Shown: positions 1 through 64,000 of the stretch, one piece after another | Position numbering within the stretch: position 1 is the first letter of the stretch | How the letters are laid out: each line of letters begins with the position of its first letter | NCBI RefSeq assembly: GCF_005405925.1 | Contig: NZ_BJHV01000001.1 | Coordinates: forward strand, 9,486,001-9,550,000 | Origin: Streptomyces antimycoticus | GTDB lineage: Bacteria > Actinomycetota > Actinomycetes > Streptomycetales > Streptomycetaceae | Direction: 5' to 3' | DNA: 64,000 bases | Translations under genes and position numbers: made by a program | The notes under the pieces: generated by a model | Database searches by the model: none | The model's input: only the letters and a program-made list of their open reading frames with translations | Told to the model about the DNA's origin: nothing

Positions 1-1
1 G

Positions 2-1987
2 CAGGCGGCCGCCGTACCGGTGGTGTTCCTCACCGCCTGGTACGGGCTGGTGGACCTGGCCGGGCTGCGGGACGGCGAAACGGTGCTGATCCACGCAGCG
101 ACCGGCGGTGTCGGCATGGCGGCGGTGCAGATCGCCCGCCACTTGGGCGCCGAGGTCTATGCCACGGCCGGCCCCGGCAAGCACGGGGTGCTCGAGGACA
201 TGGGCATCGACCAGGCGCATCGCGCCTCCTCGCGCGACCTGGACTTCGAGGAGGTGTTCCGCGAGGCCACCGGCGGACGTGGCATCGATGTGGTGCTCAA
301 CAGCCTCGCCGGGCCGTACGTCGACGCCTCCCTGCGGCTGCTGGCCGACGGCGGACGGCTCTCCGAGATGGGCAAGACCGACATCCGCGCTCCCGAGCAC
401 CTCGCGGCCACGCATCCGGGCGTCCGCTACCGCGCCTTCGACCTGGTGCCCGACGCCGGGCCGGACCGCATCGGGGAAATGCTGCGCGAAGTGAGCGAGC
501 TGTTCGCGGCCGGAGCGCTGCGGCCCGCCCCCGTACGTCCGTGGCCGCTCAGCCGGGCGCGGGACGCGCTACGGCAGCTGAGCCAGGCCCGGCACACCGG
601 CAAGCTGGTGCTGGACGTACCCGCCGCGGTCGACCCGGACGGCACGGTACTGATCACGGGCGGCACCGGCACCCTGGGCGCCTACATCGCCGAACACCTC
701 GTCCGCACCTGGGGGATCGGCCATCTGCTGCTGGTGAGCAGGCGCGGTCCGGACGCCCCGGGCGCCCGCGACCTGGCCGCCCGCCTGGAGGGGCTGGGCG
801 CGCGGGTGCGCCTCGCCGCGGCGGATGTCACCGACGCCACGGCGGTGGCGGAGCTGGTGGCGGGCATCGACCCCGGGCATCCGCTGACCGGAGTCATCCA
901 CGCCACCGGTGTGCTGGACGACGCGGTGGTGACCTCACAGACCCCCGAACGGCTGGCACGGGTCTGGACGGCCAAGGCCACGGCCGCGGCCCATCTGCAC
1001 ACGGCCACGGCCCATCTGCGGCTCGGCATCTTCGTCCTCTTCTCCTCCGCCGCGGGCACACTCGGCAGCCCCGGACAGGCCAACTACGCGGCGGCCAACG
1101 CCTTTTGCGACGCACTCGCCGCCCATCGGCGCGCCGCCGGGCTGCCCGGCGTATCGATCGCGTGGGGCCTGTGGGCGGACGCCAGCGGAATGACCGGACA
1201 CCTGGCCGAGGCGGATCTGGCCCGCATGTCCCGTACCGGCGTCGCCGCCCTGAGCACCCGGCACGGCCTGGCCCTGCTCGACGCCGCCGTCCAGCACGGC
1301 GGTGACCACCTGGTCGCCGCCCACGTGAACACCCGCACCCTCGCCGGACTGCCCGCCGACAGCCTGCCCGCCACGCTGCGCGCCCTGGCCGCCACGGGCG
1401 GCGGTGGCGGCACCGGGCGGCGCACCGCGGCGGCGGCCGGGGAAGGCCGCCAGGTCGACTGGGGCGCCCGGCTCGCGGGCCTGTCCCCGGCCGAACGGCA
1501 CCGACTCGTGCTCAACCTGGTCCGTGGCCACGCCGCCACGGTCCTCGGACACGCCGATGTGGACGCGGTACAGGCCGAGGCCAGCTTCAAGGAGCTGGGC
1601 TTCGACTCGCTGACCGCCGTCGAACTGCGCAACCGGCTCGCCGCCGCCACCGGTCTGCGGCTGCCCGCCGCCCTCGTCTTCGACTACCCGGAGGCGGCCG
1701 TACTCGCCGACTACCTGCTGGAACGGCTGGCACCCGGCGACGGAGCCGCGCCGGGCCGGGACGCCGTCGACCCGGTCCTCGGCGAGCTGGCCAGGCTGGA
1801 CACCACCTTGGCCACCCTCGTCACGGACGACGAAGGCCGGCAGCGGATCGCCAAACGACTGGGCGCCCTGCTGGCGACATGGAACGGCGGCGAGTCCGGA
1901 GCCCCGGCCGACGCGACCGACTTCGACGCCCTCGAAGCCGCCTCGGACGACGAGATGTTCGAGCTCATTGACCGTGAACTGCCCTGA
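2..1987 (+). CDS. Type I modular PKS, 3' end: partial ER, KR, ACP, docking (predicted module 4)
   Basis: The gene is open at its 5' end because the window begins inside the enoylreductase (ER). Visible in order: the ER with nucleotide-binding motif [19 protein letters not shown] (nt 92-148); a ketoreductase (KR) starting at [10 protein letters not shown] near nt 650, with a B-type HATGVLDD motif and catalytic YAAAN; an ACP with the phosphopantetheine serine in GFDSL at nt 1607-1609; and a C-terminal docking segment (about nt 1770-1984) ending FELIDRELP. The module ends in ER-KR, so the beta-carbon is fully reduced to CH2. In the nigericin scheme this fits module 4 (C23). The stop codon is 16 bp before the next PKS start, so the genes are co-transcribed and the proteins probably dock to each other. 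No frameshift is visible here. The module number is inferred from colinearity. Confidence 0.9.
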
Positions 1988-2003
1988 TGGAGGCGCGGAA
2001 CTG

Positions 2004-5000
2004 ATGTCGGGTACCGAAGAGAAGCTCCGCCAGTACCTCAAGAAGGTCACGGCCGATCTGGGGCAGACGCGTCGACGGCTTCGCGAGATGGAGGAGCGAT
2101 CGCAGGAGCCGGTGGCCATCGTGAGCATGGCCTGCCGGTTCCCCGGCGGGATCGCCTCGCCCGAGGACCTGTGGGAGCTGGTCGCCTCGCGCGGGGACGC
2201 GATCGGGGAGTTCCCGACCAACCGCGGCTGGCACCCCGAGGCCCTCTACCACCCGGACCCCGACCACTCCGGCACCAGCTACGTCCGCCACGGCGGATTC
2301 CTGGACCGGGCCGACGGCTTCGACGCCGCCTTCTTCGGCATCAGCCCGCGCGAGGCCCTGGCGGCCGAACCCCAGCAGCGCCAACTGCTCGAAGTATCCT
2401 GGGAGTTGCTCGAACGCGCCGGATTCGATCCCACCTCGCTGAAGGGCACCCCCACCGGGGTCTACGCGGGCGCCGGAATTCTCGGCTTCGGCACCCCGCA
2501 GATCGAAAAGAGCGCGGAAGGATATCTGCTCACCGGGAACACCCTGAGCGTCGTCTCCGGCCGAGTGGCCTTCACTCTCGGCCTGGAAGGGCCCGCGGTG
2601 ACGGTGGACACCGCCTGCTCGTCATCGCTGGTCGCCATGCACCTCGCCTGCCAGGCGCTGCGGCAGGGCGAATGCACCCTGGCCCTGGCCGGCGGCGTGA
2701 CCGTGATGACCACCCCGAACACTTTTGTGGAATTCTCCCGCCAGCGCGGACTGGCCCCCGACGGCCGCTGCAAGCCCTTCGCCGCCGCCGCCGACGGCAC
2801 GGGCTTCTCGGAGGGCGTCGGGCTCCTGCTGCTCGAGCGGCTCTCCGACGCACAACGCAACGGACATCAGGTGCTCGCGGTGATCCGTGGCTCGGCCATC
2901 AACCAGGACGGCGCGTCCAACGGGCTGACCGCGCCCAACGGCCCGTCCCAGCAGCGGGTGATCCGCCAGGCCCTGATCAACGCCCAGCTCTCCTCCGCCG
3001 AGGTGGACGCGGTGGAGGCACATGGTACGGGCACCACACTCGGCGACCCGATCGAAGCCGAGGCGCTGCTCGCCGCGTACGGCCGGGACCGGTCGGAGGA
3101 CCGGCCGCTGTGGCTCGGCTCGCTGAAGTCCAACATTGGCCATACGCAGGGTGCGGCGGGTGTCGCCGGTGTGATCAAGATGGTGATGGCGCTGCGCCAT
3201 GAACTGCTGCCCGCCACGCTGTACGTCGATGAGCCGACCCCGCACGCGGACTGGTCCGGCGGCGCGGTACGGCTGCTCACAGACCCGGTGGAGTGGCCGA
3301 GGAACGAGCAGCCGCGCCGGGCCGGGGTCTCCGCGTTTGGGATCAGCGGCACCAATGCGCATGTGATCGTGGAGCAGGCTCCTGACGGGGCCGTGCCGGA
3401 GGTGGGTGCGGCTGCTGTTGGCGGTGGGGTGGTTCCGTGGGTGCTCTCGGCCCGGAGTGTGGAGGCGTTGCGGGGGCAGGCGGCGGCGTTGGCTGAGCGG
3501 GTGGGTGGTGCGGCGGAGCTGTCGTCCGTTGATGTGGGGTGGTCGTTGGTGACGACGCGGTCGGTGTTTGAGCATCGGGCGGTGGTGGTGGGTGAGGGCT
3601 GTGGTGAGTTGGTGGCGGCGGTGGAGGCGTTGGCGGGGGTGTGTCGCATCCGGGTGTGGTGGAGTCGGGTGCGGCGGCGTTGGTGGGTGATGTGGGTCCG
3701 GTGCTGGTGTTTCCGGGTCAGGGTTCGCAGTGGGCCGGTATGGGCGCCGAGCTGCTGGAAGTGTCGCCGGTGTTTGCGGCGCGGGTGGGGGAGTGTGAGC
3801 GGGCGCTGGGGCCGTATGTGGAGTGGTCGCTGATGGATGTGTTGCGTGGTGTGGAGGGTGCGGCGGATTTGGGGCGGGTGGATGTGGTGCAGCCGGTGTT
3901 GTGGGCGGTGATGGTGTCGTTGGCTGGGGTGTGGGCGGGGTATGGGGTGCGTCCTGCGGCGGTGGTGGGTCATAGCCAGGGTGAGATCGCGGCGGCTGTC
4001 GTCGCGGGAGCGCTGTCCCTGGAAGACGGTGCCAAGGTGGTGGCGCTGCGGAGCAGGGCGTTGCGGCGGTTGGCCGGTGGTGGGGCGATGGCGTCGCTCG
4101 GTGTGGGTGAGGAGCGGGCGGGCCAGTTGCTCTCCGACCTGGGCGATCAAACCGCTGGTGTAGGCGTGGCCGCAGTCAACGGACCTTCCTCCACAGTGGT
4201 TTCGGGACCACCCCAGCAGGTGGCCGCTGTCGTGGCCGCGTGTCAGGAGGTGGGGGAGCGGGCGCGGTTGATCGAGGTGGATTATGCCTCGCATGGTCCT
4301 CAGGTGGAGGAGATCCGCGATGAGCTGAGCGAGGTTCTGGCCGGTGTTCGTCCGCTTGATACGTCGGGTTCGGGTACGGCGTTCTATTCGACCGTGACCG
4401 GTGGTCGTGTTGTTACCACCGGCCTGGACACGGGCTATTGGGTGGCGAATCTGCGGGAGCGGGTGCGGTTCACCGATGCCGTTCAGGCGTTGCTGGCGGA
4501 CGGGCATCGGGTGTTCATCGAGGCCAGTACGCATCCCGTGCTCACTCTCGGCCTGCAGGAGACCTTCGAGGAAGCGGAGGTCGCGGCCGTCACCGTGCCG
4601 ACTCTGCGTCGTGATCACGGTGGCCGGGCCCAGCTCCTCCATTCGCTCGCCCAGGCGTTCATCGCCGGGGTCGACGTCGACTGGAGGGCCGCGTTCCCGG
4701 ACGACCCCACCCCTCGTACCGTCGATCTACCCACGTACGCCTTCCAGCACCAGCGTTACTGGATGAACGGCTCGGGCGCGGTCGGCGACCCCAGCGGCCT
4801 CGGCCTCGTCGCCGCGGACCATCCGTTGCTCGGAGCCGCCGTGGAGCTGGCCGATGGCAGCACCCACCTGCTCACCGGGCGTATCTCGGCCGGTGGCGGT
4901 GACGATTGGCTTGGCGAACACATCGTGGCGAACGCAGTCCTGGCCCCGGGCGCTGCGCTGGTGGAGTGGGCACTGCGGGCTGCCGACGAGGTCGGCTGCG

Positions 5001-8000
5001 GTGGGATCGAGGAGCTGGCTCTCCAGGTGCCGTTGGTGCTGCCGGAGTCGGGCGGGCTGCGCATCCAGGTGGTGGTGGGCGCCGCGGCGGCGGACGGGCG
5101 GCGCGATGTGCGGATCTACTCTCGTCCGGACGGCGAGGGCGATGCGGGCGCCGATGTGGGCTGGCTGTGCCACGCCGAAGGGGTGCTGAGCCCGGCACCG
5201 GAAGGCGCGGGCCGGTCGGCCGAGGGACTGGGCGGAACATGGCCTCCGGCGGGTGCGAAACCGGTGGATCTGGAGGGGTTTTACGAGCGTTCCGAGGCGG
5301 CGGGCTATGCGTACGGGCCGTCGTTCCAGGGGCTGCGCGCCGTGTGGCGGGACGGCGCCGACCTGCTGGCCGAGGTGGCGCTGCCCGAGGCGGCGGGGGA
5401 CGCCGACGGCTTCGGTATCCACCCGGCCCTACTCGACGCGGCCCTGCACCCGGCCCTCCTGCTCGACACCGGATCCGAGCGGGAGCGGGACGGCGGCGGC
5501 CAGGTGCTGCTGCCGTTTGCCTGGAACGGGGTGTCGTTGTGGGCCGCTGGAGCGAGCACGGTACGCGTGCGGCTCACCCCGCATGGGGACGGCGCCGAGG
5601 GTGAGCGCGGGCTGCGGCTGGTGGTGGCCGATGCCGTGGGCGACCCCGTTCTGACGGTCGACTCCCTGGTGACGCGACCGGCGCCCGTAGAGCAGTTGCG
5701 GGGGGCTGCGGCGGCGCGTGGTGTGGACGGTCTGTTCGTTCTGGACTGGACGCCACTGCCGCAGCCCACAGGGGCCGAGGGGCCGGTGGCCGGTCGCGAT
5801 GATTGGGCGGTGCTGGCGACCGAGGGGGCGCATCCGGATCTGGAGGAGCTTCTCGCGGCACTCGATGACGGGAAGCCGGTCCCGGCCGTGGTTCTCGCCG
5901 AGTTCCCGCGCTCGGACGTCGACGCCGACACCGCGACCGATATGGCGGCTGCTGGTCTGGTGGTGGCACAACACGCCCTGGGACTGGTGCAGAAGTGGCT
6001 GGCCGAGCCGCGGCTGGCCGATGCCCGGTTGGTCGTGGTGACGCGAGGCGCGGTCGCCGTCACCGACGCCGAGGGCGGTACGGATGCGGCTGCCGCCGCG
6101 CTGTGGGGTCTCCTGCGGAGCGCGCAGGCGGAGAACCCGGGACGCTTCGTTCTGCTCGACCTCGGACTGGATCTCGACCTCGGACTGGATCTCGACCTCG
6201 AACTGGATGTAGATCGAGCCCGCGGCCTCCACCTGCGGGACGCCATCACACAGGCGGTGGACCTGGATGAGCCGCAGTTGGCCGTACGGGACGGCCGCGC
6301 GTGGGTGCCACGGCTGGTCCGTGCCTCCGCCGACAGCGGTCCGGAGGAGCGGGACACCCCCGTGGCGCTCGATCCTGACGGCACCGTGCTGGTGACGGGC
6401 GGCACCGGCACCCTGGGCGGCTTGGTGGCCGAGCATCTGGTGCGCACCTGGCAGGTCGGCCATCTGCTCCTGGCGAGCCGTCGCGGGCCGGACGCCCCGG
6501 GGGCCCGCGAACTGGCCACCCGCCTGGAAGGGCTGGGTGCGCGGGTGCGGGTCGCCGCCGTGGATGTCACGGACGCTTCGGCGGTGGCCGAGCTGGTGGC
6601 GGGGGTCGATGCCGAGCATCCGCTGACCGGTGTCATCCATGCCACGGGGCTGCTCGACGACGCGGTGATGACCTCGCAGACACCCGAACGGCTGGCCCGG
6701 GTGTGGGCGGCCAAGGCCACGGGCGCGGCGCATCTGCACGCCGCCACCGCCGACCTTCCGCTGTCCCTGTTCGCGATGTTCTCATCGGCCGCTGGGGTGA
6801 TGGGCAGCCCGGGCCAGGCCAACTACGCGGCGGCGAACGCCTTTTGTGACACCCTCGCCGCCCACCGTCAGGCCCGTGGCCTTCCCGGGCTGTCGGTGGC
6901 CTGGGGCCTGTGGGCCCAGTCCAGCGAGATGACCGGAAAGCTCGCCGCGACGGACCGGGCTCGGATGTCCCGCTCGGGCATCGCCGCGATGTCCAGCGAG
7001 AAGGCGCTGGGCCTGCTCGACGCCGCCTGTGCGCAGGGTGGCCCGTTGTGTGTCGCCGCCGCCGTCGATCCGGCCGGGGTGGCTGGTGGGGATCTTCCTG
7101 CGGTGTTGCGGGGTTTGGTGGCCGGTCGTACCGGGCGGCGGATGGCGGCTGGTGAGTCAGGGGTTTCGGGGTTGGCTGCGCGGTTGGTGGGGTTGGGGGC
7201 TGGTGCTCGGTTGGATGTGGTGGTGGAGGTGGTGCGGGGTGGTGTGGCGGTGGTGTTGGGGTTTGGTTCTGCCGGTGAGGTGCGGGTGGATGCCGCGTTC
7301 AAGGAGTTGGGTTTTGATTCGTTGACGGCGGTGGAGTTGCGTAATCGGTTGTCGGTGGTGACGGGGTTGCGGTTGCCGGCGACGCTGGTGTTCGACTATC
7401 CGACGCCTCGGGTGCTGGCGGAGTATCTGTGCACCCGGCTGACCGGCGAGACCGCCGGGTCGGCCGCGCACGCGCCCGTCGTAACGGCGGCCGACGCAGA
7501 TGAGCCGATCGCCATCGTCGCGATGACCTGCCGATTCCCGGGCGGGGTCAGCTCCCCGGAGGAGCTCTGGAATCTGGTCGCCTCGGGCCGTGACGCCATC
7601 GGGGAGTTTCCGACCGGCCGAGGCTGGGACCTGGACGGGCTCTTCCACCCCGACCCGGACCACCCCGGCACCTCGTACGCGCGCAAAGGCGGGTTCCTGT
7701 ACGACGCCGATGCGTTCGACGCGGCGTTCTTCGGGATCAATCCGCGGGAGGCGCTGGCCACCGATCCGCAGCAGCGGCTGTTGCTGGAGGCGTCGTGGGA
7801 GGTGCTGGAGCGGGCGGGGATCGACCCGGTGACGCTGAAGGGCAGCCCGACCGGGGTGTACGCGGGCGTGATGTATCACGACTACGCGGCCGGGCTCAGC
7901 GGCGGCGACGCGCGCTTGGAAGGCTACGCGATGCTGGCCAGTTCGGGCAGCGTGGTGTCGGGCCGGGTGGCGTACACGCTGGGCTTTGAGGGTCCTGCGG

Positions 8001-11000
8001 TGACGGTGGATACGGCGTGTTCGTCGTCGTTGGTGGCGATGCATCTGGCGGCGCAGGCGTTGCGGCAGGGCGAGTGCACCCTGGCCCTGGCAGGTGGGGT
8101 GACGGTGATGGCCACCCCGGATGTGTTCACCGGTTTCTCCCGCCAGCGCGGTCTGGCTCCCGATGGCCGGTGCAAGCCCTTCGCGGCCGCCGCCGATGGC
8201 ACCGGCTGGAGCGAAGGCGTGGGCGTTCTGCTGCTGGAGCGGCTGTCGGACGCCCGGCGCAACGGTCACGACGTCCTGGCCGTGATCCGTGGCTCCGCCG
8301 TCAACCAGGACGGTGCGTCCAACGGGCTCACGGCGCCGAACGGTCCCTCGCAGCAGCGAGTCATCCGCCAGGCGCTGGCGAGCGCCGGGTTGACGGTCTC
8401 GGATGTCGATGCGGTGGAGGCGCATGGCACGGGTACGACGCTGGGTGATCCGATCGAGGCGCAGGCGCTGCTGGCCACCTATGGTCAGGATCGCCCCGCC
8501 GGGCAGCCGCTGCTGCTCGGCTCGATCAAGTCCAACATCGGCCATGCCCAGGCGGCGGCGGGTGTGGCAGGCGTCATCAAGATGGTGCAGGCCATGCGCC
8601 ACGGCACGCTGCCTGCCTCCCTGCATATCGATGAGCCGAGCCCGCATGTGGACTGGGACAGCGGTGCGGTGCGGCTGCTGACCGAGGCGGTGGAGTGGCC
8701 GAATGGTGAGCGGCCGCGGCGGGCCGGTGTGTCCTCGTTCGGCGCCTCCGGCACCAACGCCCATCTCCTTCTGGAACAGGCCCCCGAGCCGGTCGAGCGT
8801 GTCACCACCGAACCCGTGATCTCCCCCGATATGCGGGCGGTTCCATGGACGCTGTCCGCGCGGAGTGCGGAGGCGCTGCGCGGCCAGGCCGCCGCGCTGG
8901 CCGAACGCATGGCCAACTCCCCCGAGCTGACGGCGGTCGAGGTGGGCTGGTCACTTGCCACCACGCGATCGCTGTTCGAGCACCGGGCGGTGGCGTTGGG
9001 CGATGACCGTGCCGAGGTGTTGGCCGCCGTGGAGGCCCTGGCGAGCGGTGAGCCACATCCGGGGGTGGTGCTCCCCGACCGTGGCGCGGCGACGGGCAAG
9101 ACGGTGTGGCTTTTCAGCGGTCAGGGCAGCCAGCGGCAGGGGATGGGGGCCGGGCTGTACGAACGGTTCCCGGTGTTCGCCACGGCGTTCGACGAGGTCT
9201 GCGGGCTGCTCGACCCCCACCTGGAACATCCCCTTCGCGACGTGGTTTTCCACGGTGTGGCCGAGCGGCCGGGGTTGCTGGACCACACCACCTACGCCCA
9301 GGCCGGACTGTTCGTCCTGCATATTGCCCTGGCCCGCCTGCTCGACTCACTCGGCGTACGCCCCGACGCGGTCATCGGCCACTCCATCGGCGAGATCGCG
9401 GCCGCCCACATCGCCGGAGTCTTCGACCTCCCCGACGCCTGCCGTCTCGTCGCCGCCCGCGCCACCCTGATGGGTGGGCTTCCCGAGGGCGGAGGCATGG
9501 TCACCATCGCGGCCACCGCCGACGAGCTCGCCGAGGACCTGGCCCGATACGACGGCCAGGTGGGCATCGCCGCCCTGAACACCCCCGGCAACACCGTCGT
9601 CTCCGGCCCGGTCGAGCTGGTCGCCGACATCGGCGACGTCTGGGCGGCGAAGGGCCGCAAGACCAGGACCCTGACCGTCAGCCACGCCTTCCACTCCCCG
9701 CTGATGGACTCCATCCTGGAGCCGTTCGCGCAGACCATCGACGGCCTGACCTTCCACCGGCCCACCCTTCCGGTGCTCAGCAACCTCACCGGTGAGCCGG
9801 CCGACGAGGAGATGGCCACCCCCGGCTACTGGGTGCGCCACATCCGCCAACCCGTCCGCTTCCACCCCGCCGTCGCTCATATCGCGCCCGAAACCGGCGT
9901 CTTCCTCGAACTCGGCCCCGACCCCGTCCTCGCCACCGCGACCCAGCACACCCTTCAGCACCTCACCGCCGACGACGCGACGGCCGACGCCGACGCCCAC
10001 GAGGGCGGAGCCGGGGCCGGTCGGCCGACTCCGCTGGTCACCGCCACCTTGAGCCGTAAGCGACCCGATGGTCACGCACTCGGCCACACCCTCGCCCAAC
10101 TGCACACCCATGGCACCGATGTCGACTGGGCCCGCTGGTTCCCGGCCGGCCCGGCGCCCCGGACGGTCGACCTGCCCACGTACGCCTTCCAGCGCGAGCG
10201 CTACTGGCTGGCCCAGGGCGGTGGCGTCGGGGATGTGGGCGCGGCCGGGTTGCAGCGGGTCGAGCATGCGCAGCTGCCGGCGGTCGTCGGGCTCGCCGAT
10301 GGCGGGCTGGTGCTCACCGGCCGGATCTCGGCCGGTGGCGCCGGGGGCTGGCTGGCCGAGCATGTGATGGCGGGCGCCGTGCTGGCGCCGGGCGCGGCGC
10401 TGGTGGAGTGGGCGCTGCGGGCAGCCGATGAGGCGGGTTGCGGCGGGGTGGAGGAGCTGGCGCTCCAGGTCCCGCTCGCCCCGCCCGCGTCCGGTGGGCT
10501 GCGCGTCCAGGTGGTGGTCGGCCTGGCCACCGAGGACGGGCGGCGTGATGTGCGGGTGTACTCCCGGCCCGACCGCGATGTCGAGCCCGGTGCCGAACCG
10601 GGCTGGGTATGCCATGCCGAGGGCGTCCTGAGTCCGCCGTCCCCGCAGAGCCCCGCGCGGGGCCCGGTGGACGAGCCGGGCGGGGTATGGCCCCCGGCGG
10701 GCGCGGAGCCCGTACGGCTCGACGGGTTCTACGAGCGCGCCGCGGCGTCGGGGTACGCCTACGGGCCGTCGTTCCGTGGCCTGCGAGCGGTGTGGCGGAA
10801 TGGCGCGGATGTGTTCGCCGAAGTGGCGCTGCCCGAGGCCGCCGGAGAACCCGAGGGATTCGGTATCCACCCGGCACTGCTGGATGCCGCGCTCCATCCG
10901 GCGTTCCTCCTCGACCGGCCCGCGCAGGAGCACGAGGACGGCCGGGTGTGGCTGCCGTTCGCCTGGAACGGCGTATCGCTGTGGGCGGGCGGTGCCACGA

Positions 11001-14244: not shown

Positions 14245-14285
14245 ATGTGCCGGGCGCGACGATCGCTGAGGCCGGGTGAAACCTC

Positions 14286-46543: not shown

Positions 46544-46566
46544 ATCGCATCAACCCGATCGTCACG

Positions 46567-53257: not shown

Positions 53258-53304
53258 CTAGCGAAGGCTCCTTGGCGCGTCGCGGAGGATGGGGGTCATC
53301 GGGC

Positions 53305-56300
53305 TCACGACTTTCCGAACTCGTCGGAGATGAGGTCGAAGATGTCCTCTGCCGTCGCCGTCTCGAGCTCGCTGTGGGCCGCGGAACGCTCCGTTTCCCG
53401 TTCCGTGTCGTTCCACTTCGCCAGCAGCAGCCGCAGTCGCCCGGTGATCCGCCGACGGGCCGCCTCGTCCACCGCCGAGGGCGCCGAGACCGCGTCCCAC
53501 CGGTCGAGCTCCGACAGCAGATGTCCCTCGGAGGTCAGCTCCCCCTCGACGAGCCGCTCGCGCAGAAAGTCGGCCAGCTCCTTGGGGGTGGGGTGGTCGA
53601 AGACCAGCGTGGGCGGAAGGTCGAGACCGGTGGCGGCGGAGAGCCGATGACCGAATTCGACGGCCGTGAGGGAGTCGAACCCCAGCTCCTGGAACGGCTG
53701 GGTGGGTGGAACGGCATCGATGGTGGGGTGGCCGAGGATCGCCGCGGCATGCGTCTGGATGTGGTGGAGGAGAAGCTGATGCTGCTGGGTGGGGGTGCTG
53801 GTGGCCAGCTGCCGCTGAAGTGAACCGCTCACGGCCGCGGCGTCGTCCGGGGTGGCATCGACGCCCGGCGAAGCCGCGGCGGCCAGGTCGGACAGCAGCG
53901 GGCTGGGCCGCTGCGCGGTGAAACCGGCCGGGAACCTCTCCCAGTCGATGTCCGCGATGGTGACCGTGGTGTCGCCGTGGTCGAGGGAGTGCTGGAGCGA
54001 GGCGATGGCGAGATCGGTGTCCAGGGGACGCATCCCGCGCCGCCGGTAGTACTCGACGACGGCCTCGTCGGCGGCCATCCCCGCATCGCTCCATGGTGCC
54101 CAGGCGAGGCTGGTGGCGGGGAGTCCGCGGGCACGGCGGTGCTCGGCGAGGGCGTCGAGATAGGCGTTGGCGGCGGCGTAGGAAGGCTGTCGGCTCCCGC
54201 CCCACGCGGCCGCGCCGGACGAGAAGAGCACGAACGCGCTGAGGTCGAGACCCTCCGTGAGTTCATGGAGCAGGGCGGCCGCGAGCGCCTTCGGCCGCAG
54301 CACCGCCTCGATCCCCGGAAGATCCAGCTCGGCGAGCGGGGTGTTCTCCGCGATACCGGCGGCGTGGATGACGGTGGTGAGGGGGTGTTCCGCCGGGATG
54401 GTGTCGAGGAGGTGTTGGAGTGCGGTGCGGTCGGTGGCGTCGCATGCGGTGATGGTGACGGTGGTGCCCAGGGTGGTGAGTTCTTGGGTGAGTTGGGTGG
54501 CGCCGGGGGCGTCGGGGCCGGAGCGGCTGATGAGGTGGAGGTGGGGTGCGCCGTGGTGGGCGAGCCAGCGGGCGACGTGGGTGCCGAGACCCCCGGTGCC
54601 GCCGGTGATCAGGGTCGTCCCGGTGGGGCGCCACGCGGTAGGGGCGTTGTCCGGGCAGGCGGCGCGCTCCAGCCGGCGGGCCAGGGCGGTGGAGCGGATG
54701 GCCACCTGGTCCTCGGGCTGCCCGGGCACCAGCACGGAGGCGATACGGGCGGCGGTGCGGGCGTCGACGACGGTCGGGAGGTCGATGAGGCCGCCCCAGA
54801 GGTGAGGGTGTTCCAGCGCGGCGACCCGGCCCAGACCCCAGACCTGGGCCTGGTGGGGGTGGGGGAGCGGATCGGTGGCGACGGCGGCCACCGCCCCCTG
54901 AGTGACACACCACAGGGGCGCGACCGGCGCCGTTTGGCTGAGGGCCTGGACGAGCGCGGCCGTCGCGGCCAGTCCCAGGGGGACGGCGGGGTGGTCGGGG
55001 TGGGGCGTCTGGTCGAGCGCGAGCAGACTCAGAATGCCCTCGGGTGTGCTGCCGTCGGGCAGATGCGAGACAAGTGGCGCAAGGCCGTCGCGCCGGGCGT
55101 CCGCACCATCGACCGACAGAAGCTCATGGGCCGCGCCATGGGCGTCGAGCGCCTGGACGGCGGCGCGGACGGCCGGATGCTCCTCCCGCCCGGACGGGAC
55201 GAGCAGCAGCCAGGTCCCGCTGAGCGTCGGCGCGGTGGCGGGGTCCGGCAACTGCCTCCACGCGACGCGATAGCGCCAGGAGTCGATGGTGGACCGTTCG
55301 CGGTGCCGACGCCGCCAAGTCGACAGTACGGGGAGCGCGGGCAGCAGGGCGTCGATGCCCGGGCTGCCCTTCTCCAGCTGGAGTGTGCAGGTGAGGGCGT
55401 CGACATCGAGCTCTTCGATGGCATGCCAGAGCTGCGCCTCGGCCGGGTCGTGGCCATGGGCATTGGCGTCGGCGCGCGGAGCGGGCGGGGCGAGCCAGTA
55501 GTGCTGGTGTTGGAAGGCGTAGGTGGGGAGGTCGATGGTGCGGGGGGTGGGGGTGGCGGGGTACCAGCTGGTCCAGTCGATGGTGGTTCCGCTGGTGTGG
55601 AGTTGGGCGAGGGTGTGGGTGAGGGCTTGGGTGTCGGGTTGTTTGTGGGTGAGGGTGGAGGTGGTGAGGGGGGTTGGGCGGTTGGTGGGGTTGTTCTGCT
55701 TGGTGTTGGTGGTGGTGGTGTGGTGGTGGAGGGTGTGGTGGGTTGCGGTGGTGAGGATGGGGTCGGGGCCGAGTTCGAGGTAGGTGCTGGTGTGGGGTGC
55801 GGTGTGGGTGATGGCGGGGTGGAAGTGGACGGGTTGGCGGATGTGTTGGGTCCAGTAGTCGGGGGTGGTGATGTGGTTGTCGGCTGGTTGTCCGGTGAGG
55901 TTGCTGATGAGGGGGATGGTGGGTGGGTGGTAGGTGAGTCCGCTGATGGCTTCCTTGAAGGGCTCGAGGATGGGGTCCATCAAGGGGGAGTGGAAGGCGT
56001 GGCTGACCGTGAGGGTCCTGGTCTTACGGCCTTTGGCCGCCCAGGTGGCGCTGATGTCGGTGACGGTCTCGAGGGGGCCGGAGATGACGGTGTTGCCGGG
56101 GGTGTTGAGGGCGGCGATGCTCACTTGGCCGTGGTGTCGGGCCAGGTCCTTGGTGAGTTCGTCGGGGGTGGCGGCGATGGTGGCCATGCCTCCGCCGTCG
56201 GGGAGTCCTCCCATGAGGGTGGCGCGGGTGGCGACGAGGTGGCAGGCGTCGGGGAGGTTGAAGACTCCGGCGATATGGGCGGCGGCGATCTCGCCGATGG

Positions 56301-59300
56301 AGTGGCCGATGACGGCGTCGGGGCGTACGCCGACCGAGTTGAGCAGGCGGGCCAGGGCGATGTGCAGGGCGAACAGTCCCGCCTGGGCGTAGGTGGTGTG
56401 GTCCAGCAGCCCGGCACGCTCTGCATCAGTGTCGAAAACCACCTGCCGTAGCGGGCGTTCGAGATGCGGATCGAGGAGGGCGCAGACCTCGTCGAAGGCT
56501 TCGGCGAAGACGGGGAAGCGGTCGTAGAGTTCGGCGCCCATGCCGGGGCGCTGGCTGCCCTGTCCGCTGAACAGGAACACGGTCTGCCCGGCGGCCTCGG
56601 CGGCCTGTCCGGGGTGCACCAGACTCGGATGGGGGTCCCCGGCGGCCAGGGCTTCGAGGCCCGCCACCAGTTCGTCGCGGTCCTGGCCGATGACCACGGC
56701 CCGGTGGTCGAGGAGCGTCCTCGTCCGCAGCAGCGACCAGCCCACCTCGGCCGGTGTCACTTCCGGGTCGCCGACGATGTGCCCGGTCAAGGCTCGCGCC
56801 TGGCCCCGCAACGCCGCGTCGCTCTGTGCGGAGATCACCCACGGAGTAACACCAGCGGCGTTCGATACCTGGGTGGGCTCGATCGGCTCGGGGGCCTGTT
56901 CAAGGATGAGATGGGCGTTCGTACCGGAGATGCCGAAGGAGGAGACCCCCGCCCGCCGGGGCCGTTCGCCCTGGGGCCATGGGACGGGTTCGGTGAGTAG
57001 GCGCAGGTCGCCCGCGTTCCAGTCGACATGCGGGGTCGGTTCGTCGATGTGCAGTGATGCGGGCAGCATCCCGTGGCGCATTGCCATCACCATCTTGATG
57101 ACACCGGCCACTCCGGCGGCGGCCTGGGTGTGCCCGATATTGGACTTGATGGAGCCGAGCCACAGCGGCCGGTCCTCCGGTCGGTCCTGTCCGTACGTGG
57201 CCAGCAGCGCCTGCGCCTCGATCGGGTCACCCAGCGTCGTGCCCGTTCCGTGTGCCTCCACCGCGTCCACCTCGGACGGCGACAGCCGGGCGTTGGCGAG
57301 CGCCTGCCGGATCACTCGTTGCTGCGAGGGTCCGTTCGGCGCGGTGAGGCCGTTGCTGGTGCCGTCCTGGTTGACGGCCGAGCCACGGACGACAGCCAGC
57401 ACTCGGTGCCCGTTGCGGCGCGCGTCCGACAGCCGTTCCAGCAGTACGAGACCGGCGCCCTCGCCCCACACCATGCCGTCCGCCGCGGCCGCGAACGGCT
57501 TGCACCGCGCGTCGGGCGCCAGACCACGCTGGCGGGAGAACTCGATGAACGCGCCCGGGGTGGCCATCACCGTCACGCCGCCCGCCAGCGCCATCGTGCA
57601 TTCGCCCTGCCGCAGTGCCTGGGCCGCCAGATGCATCGCCACCAGCGAGGACGAGCAGGCCGTATCCACCGTCACCGCGGGCCCTTCGAGGCCGAACGAG
57701 TACGCCACCCGGCCGGACACCACGCTGCCGATATTGCCCGTGGCCACATAGCCTTCGACGTCGCTCGCCGTATCGCCGGTGAGGGAGAGATAGTCCTGGG
57801 ACGTAACCCCCGCGAACACTCCCGTGTTGCTGCCCGCGAGCGTGTCCCGGTCCAGGCCCGCGTTCTCGAAGGTCTCCCAGGCGGTTTCCAGGAGCAGGCG
57901 CTGCTGGGGGTCCATGGCGACCGCCTCGCGCGGGCTGATGCCGAAGAACCCGGGGTCGAACTCGGCGGCCTGATAGAGGAAACCGCCCTCCCGGACGTAG
58001 CTCGTCCCCGCACGGTCGGGGTCGGGGTCGTAGAGCGCGTTCAGATCCCAATTGCGGTCGGTGGGCATCTCCGCGATGGCATCGCGGTGGGCGATGACCA
58101 GGTCCCACAGATCCTTCGGGGAGTGTGCGTCGCCGGGGTAGCGGCAGGCCATGCCGACGATCGCGATCGGCTCGTCCTGGGCGGCCGTGGTGGGGGTGTG
58201 AGCGGCGACGGCGATCTGCTGGCCCGTGAGTTCGGCGCGCAGGTAGGTCGCGAGGGCGTTGGGCGTGGGGTGGTCGAAGACGAGCGCGGGCGCGAGGTCG
58301 ATTCCGGTGGCGGTGGCGAGCTGATTGCGCAGCTCCACGGCGGTCAGGGAGTCGAACCCGAGCTCCTGGAAGGGCTGGGCGGGCGGAATGGCGTCCGGCC
58401 CGGAATGCCCCAGGATCGAGGCCGCGAGGGACTGGATCCGTTCGAGCAGGAGTTGGTGCTGCTGCTCGGGGGTGCCGACGGAGAGCCGCCGCTGGAGCGA
58501 GGTGCCGGCGGACGCGCCCGTCGATGCGCTGTTGGTTCGCTCGGCGGGGTTCTCGGTGGTCGTGATCAGGTCGTCGAGGAGCGGGCTGGGGCGCTGGGCG
58601 GTGAAGGCCGCCGGGAACTTCTCCCAGTCGATGTCCGCGACGGTGATGGTGGTGTCACGGTGGTCCAGGGAGTGCTGGAGCGATGCCACGGCCAGTTCGG
58701 GGCTCAGCGGAGACAGCCCACGTCGGCCGTAGAACGCGAGCGCCGTCTCGTCGGCGGCCATGCCCGCGTCGCCCCAGGGGCCCCAGGCGAGGCTGGTGGC
58801 GGGCAGTCCCCGGGCGCGGCGGTGCTCGGCGAGGGCGTCGAGATAGGTGTTCGCGGCGGCGTAGGCGCCTTGCCGACTGCCGCCCCACGCGGCCGCGCCG
58901 GACGAGAAGAGCACGAAGGCGCTGAGGTCGAGCCCCTGCGTCAGCTCATGCAGATGAGTGGCGGCCAGGGCCTTGGGTCCGAGCACATGCTGTAGTCGCT
59001 CCGGCTCCAGATCGGCGATGAGCTCGGTGTCCGACGTTCCGGCGGCGTGGATGACGGTGGTGAGGGGGTGTTCCGCCGGGATGGTGTCGAGGAGGTGTTG
59101 GAGTGCGGTGCGGTCGGTGGCGTCGCATGCGGTGATGGTGACGGTGGTGCCCAGGGTGGTGAGTTCTTGGGTGAGTTGGGTGGCGCCGGGGGCGTCGGGG
59201 CCGGAGCGGCTGATGAGGTGGAGGTGGGGTGCGCCGTGGTGGGCGAGCCAGCGGGCGACATGGGCGCCGAGACCCCCGGTGCCGCCGGTGATGAGCGTGG

Positions 59301-62300
59301 TACCCGTGGGCTGCCAGGTCCTGGGCGCGGTGGCGGGGGCACCGGCCGTACGGAGGCGCCGGGCGTAGCTGCCGGTGGCGCGGATGGCGGTCTGGTCCTC
59401 CGGTCGACCGGGGGTGAGCAGGGCGGCCAAACGGTCGGAGGTGTGGTGGTCCATGACGGTCGGGAGGTCGATCAGGCCACCCCAGCGGCGAGGGTGTTCC
59501 AGGGCCGCGGCGCGGCCCAATCCCCATGTCTGCGCCTGCCGCGGGCTCGGGAGCGGATCGCCGGGACCGGTGGCGACGGCGCCCTGAGTGAGGCACCACA
59601 GGGGCGCCGGGATCTCGGCGTCGCCGAGGGCCTGGACGAGTGCGGTGGTCGCGGCCAGCCCGAGGGGCACGGCGGCGTAGCCGGGGTGCGGCTCCTCGTC
59701 GACGGAGAGCAGGCTCAGCACTCCGGCGGGTTCGGCCTCCGAGGTGAGACGGGTGAGCTGGTCCGCCAAGGCGTCGCGATCGACGGTGTGGGTGTCGAGC
59801 ACATGGCGGAGCGGGGTGGCACCGTGGGCGGTCAGGGCCTGCTCGGCGGTTGCCACGGCAGGATGGTCGGACTGACCGGCGGGGACGATCAGCAGCCAGG
59901 TGCCGGAGAGGGCCGGAGGTGCGGAGGAAGCGGAAAGGCGCTTCCATGTGGCCTGATACCGCCAGGAATTGATGACCGACTGCTCCCGGTGATGCCGCCG
60001 CCAGGCGGACAGCGTCGGGAGGACGGCGCTCAGCATGGGCTGCTGGTCGGCCGGTGAGTCGATGGTCGCCGCGAGCGCTTCCAGATCCTCCCGCTCCACC
60101 GCCTCCCAGAACTCCCTGTCGACCAGAGCCGCCTCGGTGGGCGCAGCAGGGCCCGAGGACGAGGCCGACGACAGCCAGTAGTGCTGGTGTTGGAAGGCGT
60201 AGGTGGGGAGGTCGATGGTGCGGGGGGTGGGGGTGGCGGGGTACCAGCTGGTCCAGTCGATGGTGGTTCCGTTGGTGTGGAGTTGGGCGAGGGTGTGGGT
60301 GAGGGCTTGGGTGTCGGGTTGTTTGTGGGTGAGGGTGGAGGTGGTGAGGGGGGTTGGGCGGTTGGTGGGGTTGTTCTGCTTGGTGTTGGTGTTGGTGTTG
60401 GTGGTGGTGTGGTGGTGGAGGGTGTGGTGGGTTGCGGTGGTGAGGATGGGGTCGGGGCCGAGTTCGAGGTAGGTGCTGGTGTGGGGTGCGGTGTGGGTGA
60501 TGGCGGGGTGGAAGTGGACGGGTTGGCGGATGTGTTGGGTCCAGTAGTCGGGGGTGGTGATGTGGTTGTCGGCTGGTTGTCCGGTGAGGTTGCTGATGAG
60601 GGGGATGGTGGGTGGGTGGTAGGTGAGTCCGCTGATGGCTTCCTTGAAGGGCTTGAGGATGGGGTCCATCAAGGGGGAGTGGAAGGCGTGGCTGACCGTG
60701 AGGGTCCTGGTCTTACGGCCTTTGGCCGCCCAGGTGGCGCTGATGTCGGTGACGGTCTCGAGGGGGCCGGAGATGACGGTGTTGCCGGGGGTGTTGAGGG
60801 CGGCGATGCTCACTTGGCCGTGGTGTCGGGCCAGGTCCTTGGTGAGTTCGTCGGGGGTGGCGGCGATGGTGGCCATGCCTCCGCCGTCGGGGAGTCCTCC
60901 CATGAGGGTGGCGCGGGTGGCGACGAGGTGGCAGGCGTCGGGGAGGTTGAAGACTCCGGCGATATGGGCGGCGGCGATCTCGCCGATGGAGTGGCCGATG
61001 ACGGCGTCGGGGCGTACGCCGACCGAGTTGAGCAGGCGGGCCAGGGCGATGTGCAGGGCGAACAGCCCCGCCTGGGCGTAGGTGGTGTGGTCCAGCAGCC
61101 CGGCACGCTCTGCATCAGTGTCGAAAACCACCTGCCGTAGCGGGCGTTCGAGATGCGGATCGAGGAGGGCGCAGACCTCGTCGAAGGCTTCGGCGAAGAC
61201 GGGGAAGCGGTCGTAGAGTTCGGCGCCCATGCCGGGGCGCTGACTGCCCTGCCCGCTGAACAGAAACACGGTCTGCCCGGTCGCATCGGCAGTCGTCTCC
61301 CCGGGCCCCACCAGGCCCGGATGAGGCTCTCCGGAGGCCAGGGCTTCCAGCCCCGCCACCAACTCCTCACGGTCCTGGCCGATCACCACCGCGCTCTGGT
61401 CGAAGAGTGTCCTGGTCCGCAGCAGCGACCAGCCCACCTCCGCAGCGGTCACCCCCGGGTCGGCGTTCACCCGTGCGGCCAGCGCCCGCGCCTGGCCGCG
61501 TAGTGCCTCCGTACCGCGCGCCGAGACCACCCATGGCACCGGCCCGCCTACCGGCTCCGCCTCGATGGCCTCGACCGCCGCCGGCGGCTCCTCGGGGGCC
61601 TGCTCCACGATGACATGCGCATTGGTCCCGCTGATGCCGAAGGAGGAGACCCCCGCCCGACGAGGATGTTCGTCCCCCGGCCACTCCCGCGCCTCGGTCA
61701 GCAGGTGGACTTCGCCCGCGTTCCAGTCGACATGCGGGGTCGGTTCGTCGATGTGCAGTGATGCGGGCAGCACCCCATGCCGCATCGCCATCACCATCTT
61801 GATGACACCGGCCACTCCGGCGGCGGCCTGGGTGTGGCCGATGTTGGACTTGATGGAGCCGAGCCACAGCGGATGCCCACCCCGCCGCTCCTGCCCGTAC
61901 GTGGCCAGCAGCGCCTGTGCCTCGATCGGATCGCCGAGGGTGGTCCCGGTGCCGTGCCCCTCCACCACATCGACCTCTGCGGGCGACAGCCGCGCGTTGG
62001 CGAGCGCCTGGGCGATGACCCGTTGCTGGGAGGGCCCGTTCGGTGCGGTCAGCCCGTTGCTGGTGCCGTCCTGGTTGACCGCGGAGCCCCGGAGGACGGC
62101 CATCACCCGGTGGCCGTTGCGGCGCGCGTCCGACAGCCGCTCGAGCAGCAGAAGCCCGGCCCCCTCGCCCCAGCCGGTGCCGTCGGCCGCCGATGCGAAC
62201 GGCTTGCACCGGCCGTCGGCCGCCAGACCTCGCTGGCGGGAGAACTCGATGAAGGTGGTCGGCGTGGCCATCACCGTCACGCCGCCCGCCAGCGCCATCG

Positions 62301-64000
62301 TGCATTCGCCCTGCCGCAGTGCCTGGGCCGCCAGATGCATCGCCACCAGCGAGGACGAACACGCCGTGTCCACCGTCACCGCGGGCCCTTCGAGGCCGAA
62401 CGCGTACGCCACCCGACCGGACATGACACTCGGCGTACCGCCCGCGAGCAGATACCCCTCGACCTCCCGCGCCGAGGAGCTTCCGGAGGCGCCGTAGCCC
62501 TGATAGGTGCCGCCCGCGAAGACGCCGGTGACGCTTCCGGCGAGCGTGTCCCGGTCCAGGCCCGCGTTCTCGAAGGTCTCCCAGGCGGTTTCCAGGAGCA
62601 GGCGCTGCTGGGGGTCCATGGCGAGCGCTTCGCGCGGGCTGATGCCGAAGAACGCCGCGTCGAACCCGGCCGCATCGTGGAGAAAGCCGCCCTCGCGCGC
62701 ATAGCTGGTGCCCAGACGCTCGGGGTCGGGGTCGAAGAGGGTGTTCAGATCCCAGCCACGGTCGGTGGGCATCTCCCCGACGGCGTCCCGGCCCGCGGCG
62801 ACCAGCTCCCACAGCTCCTCAGGTGAGCGCACGCCGCCCGGGTAGCGGCAGGCCATGCCGACGATCGCGATCGGCTCGTCGTCGGCGGCCGCGAACGCCG
62901 TATGGGTGGTGACGGCGGGCTTGCGCCCCGTCAGTTCCGCGCCCAGATAGGTGGCGAGCGCATTCGGCGTCGGATGGTCGAAGACCAGCGCCGGGGCGAG
63001 CGGGAGGCCGGTGGTGGTGGCGAGCTGGTTGCGCAGCTCGACCGCGGTGAGGGAGTCGAAGCCCAGCTCCTGGAAGGGCTGTGCGGGGGGAATCGCGTCC
63101 AGGCCGGGGTGACCGAGGATCGTCGCGGCCAGGGTCTGGATATGGCGGACGAGGAGCTGGTGCCGCTGTGCGGCCGGCGCCGCGCTGAGCTGCTGCCGCA
63201 ACGGATTGTCGTCGGCGGTGTCCGTGGACGTGGCGGGCTCGGCGGCCGACGGCATCAGCCGGGTGAGGAACGGACTCGGGCGCTGCGCGGTGAACGTACT
63301 GCCGAACCTCGCCCAGTCGACATCCGCGATCGTGACGGCCGTGTCGTGGTGGGTCAGGGCGTGGTGCAGCGACGCGATGGCGAGGTCGGTGGGGAGAGGC
63401 GACAGACCGCGCCGCTCGAGGTGGGAGAGCGTGTGCTGGTCGGCGGCCATGCCTGCCTCGCCCCACGGGCCCCAGGCAAGGCTGGTGGCGGGCAGGCCCC
63501 GGGTGCGGCGGTGCTCGGCGAGTGCGTCCAGGTAGGTGTTCGCGGCGGCGTAGGCGGCCTGTTGCCCGCTGCCCCAGGTGGCGGCGTTCGACGAGAAGAG
63601 AATGAAGGCCGTCAGATCGAGGTGCTGGGTGAGGTCGTGCAGATGAGCGGCGGCCAGGGCCTTGGACCGCAGAACGGACTGCAACCGCCCGGGATCCAGT
63701 TCGCCGATCTGCCCGAGTTCCATCGTGCCGGCGGTGTGGAAGACGGCGGTGAGGGGGTGTTCGGCGGGGACGGTGTCGATGAGCTGCCGGAGCGCGGCGC
63801 GGTCGGAGGCGTCGCAGGCGGTGATGGTGACATCCGTCCCCAGAGCGGTGAGCTCCTCGCTGAGCTCGGACGCACCGGGCGCGTCGGGTCCGGAACGGCT
63901 GATGAGGTGGAGATGGGGCGCGCCCCGGTGAGCCAGCCAGCGGGCGATCTGGGCGCCGAGACCCCCGGTGCCACCGGTGATGAGCGTGGTCCCCGACGGC
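53305..64000 (-). CDS. Type I modular PKS, KR-ACP end of one module plus two complete modules (predicted 10-12), 5' end outside window
   Basis: The reading frame is open from 64,000 to the TGA at 53305 (at least 3,560 residues). Order from the N-terminal side: KR-ACP of a first module, KS-AT-KR-ACP, KS-AT-KR-ACP, then a docking tail ending FDLISDEFGKS. Both visible ATs carry GHSIG and HAFH, so both should use malonyl-CoA. No DH or ER is present, so each unit ends as a hydroxyl. All three KRs lack LDD and have Trp in the catalytic region (AAAWGG or AATWGS), the A-type signature, unlike the B-type KRs elsewhere in the window. This fits the C11, C9 and C7 oxygens of nigericin, made by modules 10-12. 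No frameshift is seen. The promoter and docking N-terminus lie beyond 64,000. Confidence 0.9.
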   Translation of the reverse strand, partial: PSGTTLITGGTGGLGAQIARWLAHRGAPHLHLISRSGPDAPGASELSEELTALGTDVTITACDASDRAALRQLIDTVPAEHPLTAVFHTAGTMELGQIGELDPGRLQSVLRSKALAAAHLHDLTQHLDLTAFILFSSNAATWGSGQQAAYAAANTYLDALAEHRRTRGLPATSLAWGPWGEAGMAADQHTLSHLERRGLSPLPTDLAIASLHHALTHHDTAVTIADVDWARFGSTFTAQRPSPFLTRLMPSAAEPATSTDTADDNPLRQQLSAAPAAQRHQLLVRHIQTLAATILGHPGLDAIPPAQPFQELGFDSLTAVELRNQLATTTGLPLAPALVFDHPTPNALATYLGAELTGRKPAVTTHTAFAAADDEPIAIVGMACRYPGGVRSPEELWELVAAGRDAVGEMPTDRGWDLNTLFDPDPERLGTSYAREGGFLHDAAGFDAAFFGISPREALAMDPQQRLLLETAWETFENAGLDRDTLAGSVTGVFAGGTYQGYGASGSSSAREVEGYLLAGGTPSVMSGRVAYAFGLEGPAVTVDTACSSSLVAMHLAAQALRQGECTMALAGGVTVMATPTTFIEFSRQRGLAADGRCKPFASAADGTGWGEGAGLLLLERLSDARRNGHRVMAVLRGSAVNQDGTSNGLTAPNGPSQQRVIAQALANARLSPAEVDVVEGHGTGTTLGDPIEAQALLATYGQERRGGHPLWLGSIKSNIGHTQAAAGVAGVIKMVMAMRHGVLPASLHIDEPTPHVDWNAGEVHLLTEAREWPGDEHPRRAGVSSFGISGTNAHVIVEQAPEEPPAAVEAIEAEPVGGPVPWVVSARGTEALRGQARALAARVNADPGVTAAEVGWSLLRTRTLFDQSAVVIGQDREELVAGLEALASGEPHPGLVGPGETTADATGQTVFLFSGQGSQRPGMGAELYDRFPVFAEAFDEVCALLDPHLERPLRQVVFDTDAERAGLLDHTTYAQAGLFALHIALARLLNSVGVRPDAVIGHSIGEIAAAHIAGVFNLPDACHLVATRATLMGGLPDGGGMATIAATPDELTKDLARHHGQVSIAALNTPGNTVISGPLETVTDISATWAAKGRKTRTLTVSHAFHSPLMDPILKPFKEAISGLTYHPPTIPLISNLTGQPADNHITTPDYWTQHIRQPVHFHPAITHTAPHTSTYLELGPDPILTTATHHTLHHHTTTNTNTNTKQNNPTNRPTPLTTSTLTHKQPDTQALTHTLAQLHTNGTTIDWTSWYPATPTPRTIDLPTYAFQHQHYWLSSASSSGPAAPTEAALVDREFWEAVEREDLEALAATIDSPADQQPMLSAVLPTLSAWRRHHREQSVINSWRYQATWKRLSASSAPPALSGTWLLIVPAGQSDHPAVATAEQALTAHGATPLRHVLDTHTVDRDALADQLTRLTSEAEPAGVLSLLSVDEEPHPGYAAVPLGLAATTALVQALGDAEIPAPLWCLTQGAVATGPGDPLPSPRQAQTWGLGRAAALEHPRRWGGLIDLPTVMDHHTSDRLAALLTPGRPEDQTAIRATGSYARRLRTAGAPATAPRTWQPTGTTLITGGTGGLGAHVARWLAHHGAPHLHLISRSGPDAPGATQLTQELTTLGTTVTITACDATDRTALQHLLDTIPAEHPLTTVIHAAGTSDTELIADLEPERLQHVLGPKALAATHLHELTQGLDLSAFVLFSSGAAAWGGSRQGAYAAANTYLDALAEHRRARGLPATSLAWGPWGDAGMAADETALAFYGRRGLSPLSPELAVASLQHSLDHRDTTITVADIDWEKFPAAFTAQRPSPLLDDLITTTENPAERTNSASTGASAGTSLQRRLSVGTPEQQHQLLLERIQSLAASILGHSGPDAIPPAQPFQELGFDSLTAVELRNQLATATGIDLAPALVFDHPTPNALATYLRAELTGQQIAVAAHTPTTAAQDEPIAIVGMACRYPGDAHSPKDLWDLVIAHRDAIAEMPTDRNWDLNALYDPDPDRAGTSYVREGGFLYQAAEFDPGFFGISPREAVAMDPQQRLLLETAWETFENAGLDRDTLAGSNTGVFAGVTSQDYLSLTGDTASDVEGYVATGNIGSVVSGRVAYSFGLEGPAVTVDTACSSSLVAMHLAAQALRQGECTMALAGGVTVMATPGAFIEFSRQRGLAPDARCKPFAAAADGMVWGEGAGLVLLERLSDARRNGHRVLAVVRGSAVNQDGTSNGLTAPNGPSQQRVIRQALANARLSPSEVDAVEAHGTGTTLGDPIEAQALLATYGQDRPEDRPLWLGSIKSNIGHTQAAAGVAGVIKMVMAMRHGMLPASLHIDEPTPHVDWNAGDLRLLTEPVPWPQGERPRRAGVSSFGISGTNAHLILEQAPEPIEPTQVSNAAGVTPWVISAQSDAALRGQARALTGHIVGDPEVTPAEVGWSLLRTRTLLDHRAVVIGQDRDELVAGLEALAAGDPHPSLVHPGQAAEAAGQTVFLFSGQGSQRPGMGAELYDRFPVFAEAFDEVCALLDPHLERPLRQVVFDTDAERAGLLDHTTYAQAGLFALHIALARLLNSVGVRPDAVIGHSIGEIAAAHIAGVFNLPDACHLVATRATLMGGLPDGGGMATIAATPDELTKDLARHHGQVSIAALNTPGNTVISGPLETVTDISATWAAKGRKTRTLTVSHAFHSPLMDPILEPFKEAISGLTYHPPTIPLISNLTGQPADNHITTPDYWTQHIRQPVHFHPAITHTAPHTSTYLELGPDPILTTATHHTLHHHTTTTNTKQNNPTNRPTPLTTSTLTHKQPDTQALTHTLAQLHTSGTTIDWTSWYPATPTPRTIDLPTYAFQHQHYWLAPPAPRADANAHGHDPAEAQLWHAIEELDVDALTCTLQLEKGSPGIDALLPALPVLSTWRRRHRERSTIDSWRYRVAWRQLPDPATAPTLSGTWLLLVPSGREEHPAVRAAVQALDAHGAAHELLSVDGADARRDGLAPLVSHLPDGSTPEGILSLLALDQTPHPDHPAVPLGLAATAALVQALSQTAPVAPLWCVTQGAVAAVATDPLPHPHQAQVWGLGRVAALEHPHLWGGLIDLPTVVDARTAARIASVLVPGQPEDQVAIRSTALARRLERAACPDNAPTAWRPTGTTLITGGTGGLGTHVARWLAHHGAPHLHLISRSGPDAPGATQLTQELTTLGTTVTITACDATDRTALQHLLDTIPAEHPLTTVIHAAGIAENTPLAELDLPGIEAVLRPKALAAALLHELTEGLDLSAFVLFSSGAAAWGGSRQPSYAAANAYLDALAEHRRARGLPATSLAWAPWSDAGMAADEAVVEYYRRRGMRPLDTDLAIASLQHSLDHGDTTVTIADIDWERFPAGFTAQRPSPLLSDLAAAASPGVDATPDDAAAVSGSLQRQLATSTPTQQHQLLLHHIQTHAAAILGHPTIDAVPPTQPFQELGFDSLTAVEFGHRLSAATGLDLPPTLVFDHPTPKELADFLRERLVEGELTSEGHLLSELDRWDAVSAPSAVDEAARRRITGRLRLLLAKWNDTERETERSAAHSELETATAEDIFDLISDEFGKS
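54370..54605 (-). repeat. KR paralogous block, copy A (module 12)
   Basis: Coding for the Rossmann part of the KR. Nearly identical to 59,050-59,300, with more divergent sequence on both sides, which gives sharp conversion-type borders. Confidence 0.85.
55495..56560 (-). repeat. AT-region paralogous block, copy A (module 12)
   Basis: About 1.07 kb covering the AT and post-AT linker, almost base-for-base identical to 60,175-61,245. Visible differences include the (gtt/ggt)n stretch near 55,705. A second matched block of about 240 bp lies in the KRs (54,370-54,605 against 59,050-59,300). Confidence 0.92.
59050..59300 (-). repeat. KR paralogous block, copy B (module 11)
   Basis: Partner of 54,370-54,605. 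It starts at the HAAG codons and ends near the TGGTGGLG codons. Confidence 0.85.
60175..61245 (-). repeat. AT-region paralogous block, copy B (module 11)
   Basis: Partner of 55,495-56,560. It differs mainly by a short in-frame expansion of the Asn-Thr repeat near 60,385-60,405. Confidence 0.92.
62930..64000 (-). other. PKS module 10 (partial): KR-ACP
   Basis: KR about 64000-63440, with LITGGTGGLG at the window edge, A-type features (HTAGTMEL, NAATWGSG) and catalytic AAYAAAN. ACP with PFQELGFDSL near 63060. The KS and AT of this module are beyond the window, so the extender unit cannot be read. Malonyl is expected from the nigericin model. Confidence 0.85.

Follow-up and report, generated by a model that had tools for sequence, protein, structure and literature searches.

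The nigericin (nig) biosynthetic gene cluster of Streptomyces sp. DSM 4137 was reportedly described by Harvey et al. in 2007. Its counterpart in S. malaysiensis F913 spans 97.9 kb with a single SARP regulator, and disruption of nigR in that strain abolished nigericin production, which complementation restored (accession ON664936; PMC9312159). Genes named for these two clusters are the SARP regulator, nigD, nigE, nigCII, and nigA. The cluster is called highly conserved among different Streptomyces in PMC9045263, and PMC8137480 lists clusters considered to be for nigericin (and meilingmycin) in only four of its strains (a new isolate, iranensis, S. violaceusniger, and S. rapamycinicus). Here, we analyze a 64,000-nucleotide stretch (hereafter the window) of Streptomyces antimycoticus, covering bases 9486001 to 9550000 of contig 1 (NZ_BJHV01000001.1) in an 11.17 Mb genome of three contigs. 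We are highly confident that this locus is the nigericin cluster of a Streptomyces most likely belonging to the S. violaceusniger clade, for which the cluster is already known and published for several strains. The window covers its central two thirds, and the stretch that runs from the SARP gene through the M10-M12 synthase frame measures 94.7 kb in this genome, i.e., approximately 95 kb compared to 97.9 kb in F913.

Gene content, domain order, motifs, and conservation were read directly from the window together with 60 kb of flanking sequence on each side (184 kb in total), in which, once the main reading frames of the window had been scanned with Pfam, domains were mapped using profiles built on the modules of the window itself. 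Acyltransferase (AT) domains of modular synthases are typed by established motifs, with GHSQG/YASH marking methylmalonyl and GHS[VI]G/HAFH marking malonyl specificity. Genomes used for comparison carry codes, of which G000 is the window's own, G002 is S. endocoffeicus, G005 is Streptomyces sp. S465, G006 is S. himastatinicus ATCC 53653, and G007 is S. buecherae. The assembly line consists of a decarboxylating loading module and 14 extension modules (M1 to M14). In the upstream flank, the loading module has the order KSQ-AT-ACP with a ketosynthase (KS) reading VDTAQSSS and a malonyl-type AT (GHSVG/HAFH), followed by M1 (methylmalonyl, KS-AT-DH-ACP without a ketoreductase (KR)), M2 (methylmalonyl, DH-ER-KR), and M3 (malonyl, DH-KR). 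The M3-M4 gene starts near position -10226 and ends inside the window on the plus strand (1 to 1987); its fully reducing M4 (methylmalonyl, DH-ER-KR) has the KS, AT, DH, and the start of the ER upstream of base 1, and most of the ER, the KR, and the ACP inside. Three more plus-strand genes encode M5 (methylmalonyl, DH-KR, leaving an alkene) and M6 (malonyl, DH-ER-KR, saturated) at 1968 to 14244, M7 (methylmalonyl, DH-KR, alkene) and M8 (methylmalonyl, DH-ER-KR, saturated) at 14391 to 26433 (counted from the first KS7 match), and M9 (methylmalonyl, ketone) at 26450 to 31458. The minus strand carries M14 (methylmalonyl, DH-KR, alkene; 40757 to 46543), M13 (methylmalonyl, DH-ER-KR, saturated; 46655 to 53257), and the gene for the three malonyl KR-only modules M10, M11, and M12 (53305 to 64000), whose open frame runs on to 67806 beyond the window and there holds KS10 and AT10.

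The 16 AT matches in the window and its flanks comprise 15 complete domains (9 YASH, 6 HAFH, and none ambiguous) and one remnant without motifs. AT10 is of the malonyl type (GHSIG/HAFH at 65089 to 65946), as the preliminary description had required in advance for its assignment; the window itself shows only the KR and ACP of this module. KR9 lacks the NADPH glycine motif (GGTGxLG) in all four genomes compared, and its loss suggests an inactive domain, as the spiroketal ketone at C13 of nigericin calls for. An LDD motif is present in KR2 to KR8 and KR14, whereas KR13 reads LRD and KR10 to KR12 lack the motif; these three are therefore probably of the other stereochemical type. We also considered a loss of DH5 and discarded it, given that its His and Asp motifs are present and that its one glycine-to-asparagine exchange is likewise found in G068.

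The string agrees with the structure of nigericin at every position, given that all 14 modules fit in both extender unit and reduction level and that the loading module fits too. Reading along the chain, nigericin needs ketone level at C29, saturation at C27, an alkene at C25, saturation at C23, an alkene at C21, saturation at C19, an alkene at C17, saturation at C15, a ketone at C13, hydroxyls at C11, C9, and C7, saturation at C5, and an alkene at C3. The methyl branches needed at C28, C26, C22, C20, C16, C14, C12, C4, and C2 match the methylmalonyl modules, and 30 backbone carbons, 9 methyls, and one O-methyl add up to 40. The preliminary description had named nigericin or a very close congener from the eleven modules M4 to M14, and this assignment is borne out by the loading module and 14 matching modules, the tailoring genes, and the same string in relatives. 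All eleven of its module readings were right, although the window by itself holds nine whole modules with M4 and M10 only partial, and the frame breaks described below had gone unmentioned. Modules 1 to 3, which it had left to the upstream sequence as a test set in advance, read ketone, saturated, and alkene with methylmalonyl, methylmalonyl, and malonyl units, as C30 to C23 of nigericin require. This case confirms that a natural product can be named correctly by reading module colinearity off the bare sequence.

The genes between the two arms of the assembly line would supply the remaining steps. On the minus strand, they encode an alpha/beta hydrolase resembling NigCII and MonCII (31585 to 32451; Pfam, GHSWG motif), a free acyl carrier protein (33976 to 34383; Pfam PP-binding, GLTS serine motif), a KS protein with eroded AT and dead KR (34419 to 38357), a FAD epoxidase of the MonCI family (38354 to 39784), and two small B-type proteins, both SnoaL-like by Pfam and putative epoxide hydrolases/cyclases (39820 to 40287 and 40323 to 40760). 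A cytochrome P450 (Pfam) lies on the plus strand (32624 to 33883) and is probably the C30 hydroxylase by analogy to NigD and MonD. The closest solved structure to the epoxidase is MonCI (E 3.7e-192 over residues 2 to 467 of 476), with the lasalocid epoxidase next, and the second B-type protein matches MonBI/MonBII (E 1.8e-64) and LasB (E 2e-50); the first is 90% to 99% identical in six other clusters compared. An NCBIfam scan of nine accessory proteins gave no match reaching the curated cut-off among the families listed (the best 25 of 41 and the best 25 of 27 for two of the proteins). A methyltransferase and the SARP regulator were found by Pfam upstream of the window. The cluster has only this one methyltransferase, and just one of the 45 P450 matches in the genome falls inside the 184 kb, a tailoring complement in keeping with nigericin.

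From established polyether biosynthesis and the named homologues, we infer the identity of the product and every chemical step as follows. The KSQ loading module would decarboxylate malonyl to an acetyl starter, which the 14 modules would extend by five malonyl and nine methylmalonyl units. The chain would then present three alkenes for epoxidation (C24=C25, C20=C21, and C16=C17), a ketone at C13, hydroxyl groups on C11, C9, and C7, and an enoyl terminus (C2=C3). The KS protein without working AT or KR is predicted to hand this chain to the free ACP, which would carry it through epoxidation of the three alkenes by the MonCI-type flavoenzyme and opening of the epoxides into ether rings by the two SnoaL-type enzymes. 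The alpha/beta hydrolase may then release the acid, a role suggested by its position and by published analogy, and the methyltransferase (at the C11 oxygen) and the P450 (at C30) would complete nigericin. Roles of MonCI, MonBI/BII, MonCII, MonD, and MonE in monensin biosynthesis are described in PMC10560226. According to PMC4147253, polyether chains are passed to a free ACP and then released by thioesterases of the MonCII/NanE type, and a similar action has been proposed for NigCII.

The putative chain-transfer protein (1312 residues) retains the cysteine motif and the two histidine motifs of a KS, but its AT is shortened and lacks the GHSxG motif, and neither the NADPH motif nor the tyrosine motif is present in its KR. 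This rules it out as a fifteenth module, and the preliminary description was right not to count it. It is 84% to 93% identical over nearly its full length in G002, G003, G005, and G068. Its best matches in the seven further carriers G007 to G013, which are putative orthologues, lie in open frames of 786 to 1447 residues, a range that would be consistent with a relict module being lost by degrees. Searching the literature for KSX in combination with polyether and thioesterase turned up no papers.

The complete loading and 14-module string is found in unbroken genes in S. endocoffeicus, Streptomyces sp. S465, and G068. For the ten window proteins of the cluster that were compared, identity in these genomes is 84% to 99%. 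A draft genome of S. violaceusniger NBRC 13459 has the same module order fragmented by frame breaks, and S. buecherae has the same M1 to M14 string in the stretch examined, which excludes the loading module. M1 of S. buecherae retains part of a KR that lacks the NADPH motif, whereas M1 of G000, G068, G002, and G005 showed no KR. In S. endocoffeicus, the M9 gene is separated from the thioesterase gene by approximately 8 kb holding other genes. Scanning a collection of species genomes with the epoxidase, a single-protein query that reaches close relatives only, gave 28 loci, of which 14 are 87% to 97% identical and all titled Streptomyces; two more are 81% identical (S. buecherae and S. zagrosensis) and the other 12 range from 45% to 71%. 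None of the 28 is titled DSM 4137 or F913, neither of which was sought by accession, and the protein comparisons draw on other carriers. Among 100 genomes searched as relatives, including the window's own, 23 have an epoxidase match at E 1e-100 or better, and, the window's own aside, identity above 80% is reached only in G068 (97%) and G044 (82%). The analysis provides a complete domain map with relatives and adds a further carrier to a cluster that was already known.

Three points weigh against this assignment. Colinearity sets the skeleton and oxidation level but not late oxidations or every stereocenter, and the likeness to the DSM 4137 and F913 clusters is one of described genes and span. 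Furthermore, unlike the DSM 4137 and F913 clusters, four synthase genes of this assembly contain six frame breaks that would stop production if real. These lie in M3 between DH and KR, in M5 between KS and AT, in M6 between the DH and the middle of the ER, near the KS start in both M7 and M8, and in M9 between AT and KR, i.e., one in the M3-M4 gene upstream of the window, two each in the M5-M6 and M7-M8 genes, and one in the M9 gene. The M6 break leaves the first part of the ER out of frame, with ER6 matching its profile only from position 43, and the M7 break splits KS7 near its start. KS8 matches its profile only from position 12; no domain is wholly missing.

The breaks could mean that the nigericin cluster of this strain is decaying and without product, a scenario compatible with its identity that we consider unlikely. 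It would account for their confinement to four adjacent plus-strand genes, given that the other two of the six plus-strand synthase genes and those of the minus strand have none. None of the 45 P450 matches has an internal stop, which adds slight weight against genome-wide errors, although this control is weak because breaks would show as partial matches and one of the 45 sits in an open frame of 158 amino acids. However, the share of third-position differences between G000 and G068 is similar in broken genes (0.70; 23 domains), unbroken plus-strand genes (0.68; 7 domains), and minus-strand genes (0.72; 15 domains including the KS and KR of the chain-transfer protein), as determined for KS, DH, ER, and KR domains with AT and ACP excluded, so that selection is not visibly relaxed. 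The same genes are unbroken in G068, G002, and G005, similar fragmentation is seen in the records of S. violaceusniger and S. himastatinicus, and repeated synthase modules are generally hard to assemble. The breaks are thus probably assembly errors or very recent damage, with assembly error favored. We would likewise give a low probability to the broader proposal that either the damage to the synthase genes is genuine and fresh, with a conserved ionophore cluster caught at the very start of its loss, or the trimmed KS protein represents one stage in the gradual change, across polyether clusters, from an extension module to an enzyme devoted to transfer.

It is very improbable that the main product is instead a close congener on the same skeleton, e.g., 30-deoxynigericin (grisorixin), abierixin, an epimer, or a further oxidized form. 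Module colinearity by itself is unable to separate such congeners, and next to nigericin, PMC9045263 describes a far smaller peak that is presumably abierixin. However, this genome carries both the P450 and the methyltransferase in open frames, with P450 orthologues of 94% to 99% identity in G068 and G001 to G005 (82% to 84% in G007 and G008) and methyltransferases of 90% to 98% identity in G068 and G001 to G005, though the G004 copy shows an internal stop. A different polyether such as monensin has practically no chance, as the preliminary description had argued: although the monensin (mon) cluster shares the epoxidase, with MonCI related to ours, B-type hydrolases, with MonBI/MonBII matching one of ours, the free ACP, and the release thioesterase, it has fewer modules and one ethylmalonyl unit, while this locus has 14 modules, three of them malonyl modules after the ketone, and no ethylmalonyl candidate given that none of the 15 complete AT domains departs from the two common motif sets.

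A product other than the nigericin of our locus is predicted for a nigericin-type cluster found in a record that bears the title S. himastatinicus ATCC 53653 (G006, C2:10050001-10130000). This cluster is partly covered and badly fragmented, with parts of M7 absent from the map, and its methyltransferase is present (85% identity). No P450 orthologue was found at 1e-120 genome-wide or at 1e-20 in the 80 kb around the cluster, so that biosynthesis should end at 30-deoxynigericin, a testable side prediction from the comparison. PMC8137480 included the same strain in its genome comparison yet does not list a nigericin cluster for it, in disagreement with our finding, and nothing on a cluster lacking the P450 appeared in the literature consulted on a grisorixin gene cluster or on nigericin in himastatinicus.

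Homogenization among modules was considered as a cause of the frame breaks, but this is not supported given that G068 and G002, whose genes are unbroken, also contain AT pairs with nucleotide identity above 95%, as does the equally unbroken M11/M12 of the window's own genome. Between G000 and G068, AT5 is 85.8% identical compared to 89.7% to 96.4% for the other AT domains and 93% to 97% for KS domains. Within genomes, AT5-AT8 of G000 are 96.0% identical and AT2-AT5 of G068 98.8%. The methylmalonyl AT domains thus seem to have been homogenized separately in each genome, which suggests gene conversion among modules.

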